NCBI GenBank assembly: GCA_007695005.1 | Contig: REEQ01000124.1 | Span: 1-40,102, forward strand | Length of the DNA: 40,102 nt | Origin: Wenzhouxiangellaceae bacterium | GTDB lineage: Bacteria; Pseudomonadota; Gammaproteobacteria; Xanthomonadales; Wenzhouxiangellaceae | Direction of reading: 5' to 3' | Shown: positions 3,215 through 3,480 of the stretch, one piece after another | How the letters are laid out: each line of letters opens with the position of its first letter | Position numbering within the stretch: position 1 is the first letter of the stretch | The notes under the pieces: model-generated | Databases searched by the model: none | Told to the model about the DNA's origin: nothing | What the model saw: only the letters and a program-made list of their open reading frames with translations | Made by a program: the position numbers and the translations under genes

Positions 3215-3249
3215 TAAAAAACCCGCCAGCGCCGGGGCGCCGCGGGTTG
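3215..3249 (-). terminator. Attenuator terminator hairpin upstream of metY
   Basis: Read on the minus strand, an outer stem AACCCGC/GCGGGTT (3242-3248 with 3220-3226) encloses an inner stem GCGCC/GGCGC and is followed directly by a run of U (A-run 3216-3221 on the plus strand). It is a strong Rho-independent terminator. It sits 46 bases before the metY start and after the leader peptide stop, so it must be conditionally bypassed for metYX to be expressed. Its 5' arm overlaps the antiterminator segment at 3245-3252. Confidence 0.85.
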
Positions 3250-3319
3250 TGTCGTGATGGGTCTGGTTGGTTCCTGCTAGCGAGTGGAACACAACCTCAG
3301 CGACGCGCCCGCGGTTGTG
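3245..3319 (-). promoter_or_regulatory. Antiterminator/anti-antiterminator pairing region
   Basis: Three segments on the minus-strand RNA can pair in exclusive ways. Segment 1 is CACAACC (3313-3319), segment 2 is GGTTGTGT (3289-3296), and segment 3 is ACACAACC (3245-3252). Segments 1 and 2 pair over 7 bases; 2 and 3 pair perfectly over 8 bases. Segment 3 also forms the 5' side of the terminator with segment 4 (GCGGGTT, 3220-3226). This is the classic 1:2, 2:3, 3:4 layout of amino-acid operon attenuators. The pairings are seen in the sequence; the regulatory behaviour is inferred. Confidence 0.75.
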
Positions 3320-3375
3320 CCGGGCATACACATGCTCATCAGGCAGGCAAGGGCGAGGTGCTGGTGCGTGTTCAT
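3277..3375 (-). CDS. Met/Cys-rich leader peptide of the metYX operon
   Basis: A 32-codon frame starts with ATG 3375, preceded by GAGG with 5 bases of spacing, and ends with TAG at 3277-3279. An adjacent ATG at 3378 is an alternative start. The peptide begins [10 protein letters not shown] and continues CLMSMCMPG, giving Met at positions 13, 15 and 17 and Cys at 11 and 16, a strong excess for so short a peptide. Pairing segment 1 begins two codons after the last Met, and the stop codon lies just past segment 2. A ribosome stalled at codons 15-17 would cover segment 1 and free segment 2 to form the antiterminator. A ribosome that reaches the stop would cover segment 2 and let the terminator form. 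The peptide itself probably has no function. Confidence 0.75.
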
Positions 3376-3480
3376 CATGGCCTCGATTAACGCACCCGAA
3401 GCCACCGCCAGTCAAGCAATCCTTAATACTCGTTGCTTATAAGCTTTTTCCATTTCCCGCTTTTCCCTTGCTGCTGAAAG

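Follow-up and report, generated by a model that had tools for sequence, protein, structure and literature searches.

The 40,102 nucleotides of DNA from a Wenzhouxiangellaceae bacterium that were analysed here (the window) raise the question of how a metY-metX gene pair is controlled. A sequence-only reading had proposed a Met/Cys-codon attenuator at the 5' end of these genes, drawn as a leader frame translated from a GAGG site and followed by segments that pair as 1:2, 2:3 and 3:4. Comparison with relatives points to the same kind of device with other pairings. At a probability of roughly 0.68, the metY-metX transcript would begin with a ribosome-mediated transcription attenuator, in a version with a protector hairpin, that responds when charged tRNA for Met and/or Cys runs short. 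An attenuator of some kind, all versions being taken together, appears highly probable. The features concerned are collected in Table 1. The divergent neighbour on the plus strand matches prpF, 2-methylaconitate cis-trans isomerase (window 3481-4908; TIGR02334 above cut-off); its true start is probably further in, since the TIGR02334 match begins at residue 92.

Table 1. Coordinates in the window of the metY-metX genes and of the features ahead of them.
Feature	Position	Strand	Remarks
metY	1835..3169	-	O-acetylhomoserine aminocarboxypropyltransferase/cysteine synthase family; TIGR01326 above cut-off
metX-like homoserine O-acyltransferase	828..1835	-	abuts metY; best match TIGR01392, 287.9 bits, below the 500-bit cut-off
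-35-like box TTGACT	3410..3415	-	TTGAC position common to 16/16 loci
-10-like box GTTAAT, weak	3386..3391	-	7 nt ahead of leader ATG; assigned by eye
Leader ORF, 33 codons	3277..3378	-	second possible ATG at 3375; probably leaderless
Met/Cys core codons TGC CTG ATG AGC ATG TGT ATG	3325..3345	-	
Predicted protector hairpin of the window	3289..3319	-	CACAACC (3319-3313) with GGTTGTG (3296-3290), antiterminator strand enclosed
Antiterminator outer helix, 5' strand CCGCGGG	3308..3314	-	starts 10 nt past core
Antiterminator middle helix, 5' strand GTCG	3301..3304	-	
Antiterminator middle helix, 3' strand CGAC	3251..3254	-	
Antiterminator outer helix, 3' strand CCCGCGG	3240..3246	-	shared with terminator 5' arm
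Intrinsic terminator AACCCGCGGCGCCCCGGCGCTGGCGGGTTTTTT	3216..3248	-	-19.4 kcal/mol; six T

The leader in front of metY

Taken alone, the window provides weak evidence, and it is the comparison of its sequence with those of relatives that indicates more than chance. The 181-nt fold of the window was no better than shuffles (z -0.25, with 77 of 200 shuffles equally good), terminator-like patterns were near expectation (two found, shuffle mean 1.2), and the antiterminator helix gave a single-locus shuffle p of 0.097. No promoter was reported at the leader by a generic promoter scan.

Searches with metY (41 genomes; 30 genus genomes) yielded 15 genus loci with at least 84% identity, one of which, L018, is cut by a contig end. 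These 15 loci, the window included, together with one locus of a sister genus (L112) make up the set of 16 loci referred to below as f1. A leader ORF of 29-33 codons with a Met/Cys core lies ahead of metY in all 16, and the eight core codons hold two to three Met and two to four Cys, in forms which among the genus loci include MCMCMC, MCMCM, CTMCM and MSMCM. At least five Met/Cys within nine residues upstream of metY were found at 15 of 15 genus loci, whereas the antisense strand gave none in 15 and the 300 shuffles 0.33%. Both Cys codons are in use (TGC 20 and TGT 12, over 11 distinct cores). On this comparison, the leader element in front of metY is real. The sequence-only reading had given Met at codons 13, 15 and 17 and Cys at codons 11 and 16, which is right when counted from the second ATG, and its proposal of a Met/Cys-codon attenuator for metY-metX is borne out by the relatives in so far as a leader of variable sequence, Met/Cys codons, antiterminator and terminator are kept at 16 of 16 loci.

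A 16th genus genome (G018) has only a 55% metY homologue (L016), at which the leader was not found. In the organism's own genome, the leader-core pattern ATGTGYATGTGY gave three matches, every one within longer open frames that we take to be rpoN-, rplD- and ccmC-like; this search is a partial test, since the pattern would miss the window's own core.

It is unlikely in the extreme that the RNA is an unrecognised metabolite riboswitch or protein-binding element in which the ORF is incidental. Its helices are conserved and SAM-I riboswitches adjoin metY leaders elsewhere, but Rfam covariance models gave no match at gathering score over the 40,102 bases and just one, at chance level, in the scan of 3100-3600; furthermore, the in-frame Met/Cys codons outlast the RNA sequence, with TGC and TGT both used. 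Clusters of Met and Cys also resemble metal-binding motifs, and the resemblance would suit an arrest peptide, that is, a Met/Cys-rich nascent chain which binds copper or another thiol ligand and stalls the ribosome. This too seems very improbable, because the controlled gene belongs to the homocysteine/cysteine synthase family and the poly-Cys, Met-rich or alternating cores of other lineages suit codon counting better than a peptide motif.

TTGAC was found 35-38 nt ahead of the leader ATG at all 16 loci (searched 25-45 nt upstream). With a sigma-70-type promoter, such spacing would have transcription begin at the ATG; the leader is therefore probably leaderless, and we infer that the transcript begins at or next to its ATG. 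The GAGG (3384-3381), which had been read as the ribosome site of the leader, sits between the promoter-like TTGAC and the ATG at this leaderless spacing and occurs at none of the other 15 loci, so that it is probably not a ribosome site; within the 37 nt, L002 and L005 carry AAGG and L009 carries AGGA.

Competing structures in the leader RNA

At every one of the 16 f1 loci, a hairpin with a T run lies between leader and metY (just three T in L111 and L112, four in L003), and the 5' arm of this terminator pairs over 7-9 bp with a segment that starts 8-12 nt downstream of the core and reads GCTGCGG in most loci and CCGCGGG in the window. Single-locus shuffle p values for the antiterminator so formed ranged from 0.000 to 0.097, the window having the highest. 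Pairing of the antiterminator in an alignment of nine loci (A1) amounted to 94.4%, and to 98.4% in its outer helix; a shift of 1-3 columns brought it down to 27-52%. A1 contains one compensatory change, from U-A to C-G (of all 16 loci, 14 have U-A at this position and two have C-G), and its covariation score was equalled in 58 of 500 column shuffles. A second alignment of six loci (A2) was 95.2% paired, and two-sided change or covariation was not found among those six. The middle helix varies in sequence and keeps its pairing, with the forms CUCGUG:CACGAG in L112, UCGAG:CUCGA in L011, CGUCG:CGACG in L007, GGAUGA:UCAUCC in L004 and GUCG:CGAC in the window; when its 3' sides were swapped among 10 representatives, one of 5000 permutations was equally good, relatedness being uncorrected.

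The remaining pieces named in the sequence-only reading are present in the window as well, namely CACAACC (3319-3313), GGTTGTGT (3296-3289), ACACAACC (3252-3245) and the terminator with its six T (3248-3216). Its version of the attenuator, with GGTTGTGT:ACACAACC as antiterminator and translation from GAGG, can therefore point to an 8-bp complementarity and a GAGG that do exist, but in the window that 2:3 pair has a predicted probability of 0.00 and would cost 8 kcal/mol if enforced, while the conserved pair, CCGCGGG (3314-3308):CCCGCGG (3246-3240), reaches 0.99-1.00. Neither GAGG, CACAACC, GGTTGTG nor ACACAACC occurs in the stretches searched of the other 15 loci. The GGTTGTGT:ACACAACC antiterminator was rejected on the grounds of its probability and of the absence of ACACAACC elsewhere, and, with the leaderless spacing also against it, this version as a whole has very little chance of being correct.

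Folds calculated from the core end to the terminator arm (z -0.77 to -3.29) had no pair wholly upstream of the leader stop codon at any of the 16 loci, and the antiterminator 5' strand ends 1-7 nt ahead of that codon; a ribosome finishing the leader would thus run over the entire strand. At all 16 loci the computed stability of the terminator state exceeds that of the antiterminator, which implies that read-through would rest on masking by the ribosome and on the order of synthesis. According to these models, the antiterminator excludes the terminator and is placed out of reach of a stalled ribosome.

The promoter-like boxes, the ORF and the terminator would also be accounted for if a separate small-protein gene, ending in a terminator of its own, lay ahead of metY by chance. 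The terminator arm has, however, a conserved partner inside the ORF, the leader accompanies metY across several families, and the 46 nt between terminator and metY in the window are probably too short for a second promoter and ribosome site. This explanation is very improbable.

A protector that holds the antiterminator strand in the free leader RNA is visible only in folds that include the core, as folds starting at the core end cannot show core pairs. In 15 of the 16 predicted free-leader folds, 4-7 of the seven bases of the antiterminator outer strand are paired upstream, the partner being mostly the Met/Cys codons themselves, and in L005, L008, L009 and L012 the core forms a 16-bp helix with the following segment (p 0.002 or less). 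The dinucleotide z of the core-to-stop fold is at or below -2.5 at seven of the 16 loci and above -2 at nine, for only five of the 16 did at least 95% of random synonymous recodings score worse in this fold, and 96 of 3000 permutations were equally good when protector partners were swapped, relatedness again being uncorrected. The core-to-stop fold of the window is not better than shuffles (z 0.94); its predicted protector is CACAACC:GGTTGTG enclosing CCGCGGG, and relatives use the core instead. The full-length minimum-energy folds that include the core had the terminator formed in all 16, so that leader RNA free of ribosomes is predicted to terminate, and occupation of the core by a ribosome would turn expression on, as in the classic logic. 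A protector hairpin in the free leader RNA is supported only in part by these predictions. Within the 1:2, 2:3 and 3:4 logic drawn earlier, the protector survives as a prediction and the 2:3 pair as drawn fails.

Given this patchy support, absent by z-score in the window, a two-state Met/Cys attenuator without protector has to be considered, in which a translating ribosome blocks the antiterminator 5' strand and an untranslated leader reads through. All features except the protector would be identical. That the antiterminator strand is paired upstream in nearly all free-RNA predictions, and that four loci have the 16-bp protector, nevertheless argues against it, and we regard it as rather unlikely.

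The preferred protector version would operate as follows. Transcription would start at or next to the leader ATG. As long as no ribosome is on the leader RNA, the Met/Cys core, or in the window the CACAACC just past it, would pair with the strand that follows to give the protector; with the protector formed, the terminator would form and halt RNA polymerase some 46 nt short of metY. Stalling of a ribosome on the core would mask segment 1, so that GCUGCGG, or CCGCGGG in the window, becomes available to CCGCAGC, its partner in the terminator 5' arm (CCCGCGG in the window); with the covarying helix inside, this antiterminator would let the polymerase continue through metY-metX. If instead the ribosome completes the leader, it would cross the whole antiterminator 5' strand, and after its departure the protector could re-form. 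The sequence comparison shows the leader, core, antiterminator and terminator and their positions; effector, folding order and sign of regulation are what we infer from this arrangement. Met and Cys as signals are not separable from these sequences.

Relation to known leaders and controls

Ribosome-mediated attenuators are known from the trp, his and leu operons of enterobacteria. The metY leader resembles these in having leader peptide codons for the pathway product and competing structures, among them a predicted protector, an antiterminator and a U-run terminator. It differs in its Met and Cys specificity, in being probably leaderless and in that, in most relatives, the core itself would be the 5' strand of the protector.

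Leaderless short ORFs with Cys codons have been described in mycobacteria (Canestrari et al., 2020, as summarised in PMC9031893), where polycysteine ORFs mediate cysteine-responsive attenuation. As far as that summary goes, they differ from the present leader in phylum, in their contiguous Cys codons and in regulating the translation of downstream genes, and the portion consulted of Seliverstov (2005; PMC1262725) gives no conserved terminator hairpins at mycobacterial cysteine ORFs and no methionine element. In Rhodobacterales, cysS is preceded by the uORFC-8-2 motif (Brewer et al., 2021; PMC8632094), which likewise has an intrinsic terminator as well as Cys codons in a leader ORF, but it serves a cysteinyl-tRNA synthetase gene and has two tandem Cys codons, and Met is not mentioned in the relevant parts of that paper. 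For beta-proteobacteria, a terminator/antiterminator element before a Met-biosynthesis gene, the metXZ RNA element, has been proposed (Leyn et al., 2014; PMC4239095); with six conserved blocks and a proposed pseudoknot it is set apart from the metY leader by description only, and neither 'leader peptide' nor 'attenuat' occurs in the text of that paper as far as it was available. A gammaproteobacterial case in which RNA couples the expression of met genes to the charging of Met-tRNA, as the proposed leader would, is the met operon of Xanthomonas campestris, whose SAM-I riboswitch responds to uncharged initiator tRNA (Tang et al., 2020; PMC7270179). From the available text, in which 'leader peptide' does not occur, this riboswitch differs by direct tRNA binding and by a primarily translational action.

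In the open-access full-text literature, with subscription papers and supplements outside this scope, no leader-peptide attenuator with Met or Met/Cys codons was found ahead of metY or metX. Provisionally, the kind of mechanism is a known one, and its Met/Cys specificity before metY was not found described. The Met genes of Proteobacteria are controlled by MetJ, MetR, SahR/SamR and SAM/SAH riboswitches, according to the parts consulted of Leyn et al. (2014; PMC4239095), and a leader reading charged Met/Cys tRNA, if true, would be a separate input beside these. Sensing of Met and Cys tRNA would suit an enzyme family that is named both homocysteine and cysteine synthase. It also makes testable the question of how methionine could be sensed by an attenuator although translation initiation itself needs methionine.

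Occurrence beyond the genus

The order sample comprised 299 genomes, 89 of which have metY at E <= 1e-120, and upstream DNA was read for the 30 best loci and L018. The leader was found in 24 of these 31 loci (16 in f1, three in family f4 and five in f9). The seven loci for which no leader was counted all belong to family f11 (L014, L116-L121) and have AGACGTCT-type repeats before metY, as judged by eye, which are presumably MetJ boxes. MetJ (PF01340) was found in six of these seven f11 genomes versus one (G132) of the 24 leader genomes, a distribution that follows family lines; a Met/Cys leader would help to explain metY control where genomes show no MetJ. In the organism's own genome (assembly 91% complete), MetJ was not found, cysK was found above cut-off and cysE was not. 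An upstream frame with four Cys in nine residues, not counted as a leader, was seen in L014. The more distant order loci that were read (L015, L016, L017 and L019) had no leader.

The class sample of 369 genomes provided 12 metY matches besides the organism's own, and leaders were found in four of them: three with at least 74% metY identity (L151, L152, L153) and one (L160) of the nine at 57-61%. For other taxa, the best 80 of 580 metY loci were taken, and among the 79 with enough upstream DNA at least five Met/Cys in nine residues were found in 17 (antisense one of 79; none of 1580 shuffles) and at least seven in 13 (antisense none). When terminator arms were swapped over 18 leader loci from several taxa, none of 2000 permutations was equally good, relatedness being uncorrected; taken singly, the antiterminator had p above 0.05 in eight of the 18 (L001, L008, L010, L160, L114, L115, L062 and L058), the window included. 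The terminator script found none for L113 and L054, and L080 was not located.

A covariance model built from the 16 f1 loci (R1) matched at E < 1e-15 just 16 places among the 299 genomes, which are its own training set. Among 32 sources it also matched L115 (1.3e-5), L054 (6.5e-5) and L114 (9.1e-4), all outside the training set. Of the weak matches in family f2, the four that were fetched (L146-L149) are other attenuators. In L146, L147 and L149 a leader frame ASLRSILVLVLITQPTGAGRASV, closed by a stop codon, precedes an ilvC-looking gene, in a similar design with GGTGCGGG in the leader and a CCCGCACC..GGTGCGGG terminator, and TTGACA lies about 37 nt ahead of the possible leader ATG; L148 has an Asn-rich leader, MSLLPATAVRNTNRNNLRANNRARPMRDCALGR with its stop codon, and a terminator before an asnB-looking gene.

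Between leader and metY, the f9 loci L123-L126 share a similar stretch, TTTTCAGGC.ATTGCTGA, recognised by eye, with no clear U-run terminator, so their control may not be by termination.

SAM-I aptamers accompany many of the leaders, being present at 16 of the 20 leader loci chosen for scanning. SAM-I riboswitches were found in 13 of the 30 genus genomes; the organism's own genome has one, elsewhere (C23:6824-6937), which is followed by a second metX-like and a metB-like gene (L150, G000:C23:6000-11500). At ten Bacteroidota loci with a Cys-rich or Met/Cys leader upstream of metY (L074, L083, L088, L090, L091, L092, L096, L097, L102 and L108), and at L122 and L124 of f9, the leader ATG lies 8-10 nt past the last base of the SAM-I (RF00162) aptamer, as if the riboswitch gated leader translation. 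The order is reversed in L058, L062, L080 and L105, where the leader stop is 84-105 nt before the SAM-I aptamer, followed by metY; in L062 and L105 the leader is followed by a terminator, and a further hairpin with a T run lies closer to metY. It may be, with the chances about even, that control of metY by Met/Cys-codon leaders is widespread among phyla and evolved repeatedly, alongside SAM-sensing regulators (MetJ, SAM-I) or as their substitute, and that a SAM-I riboswitch gating leader translation would make a two-input switch, for SAM and for charged Cys/Met tRNA, within one 5' UTR. Downstream of the Cys leader in L088, L091, L092, L096, L102 and L108, where no obvious terminator was seen, a stretch like CTGCC..GTGACAGG was noted by eye, which is perhaps an expression platform.
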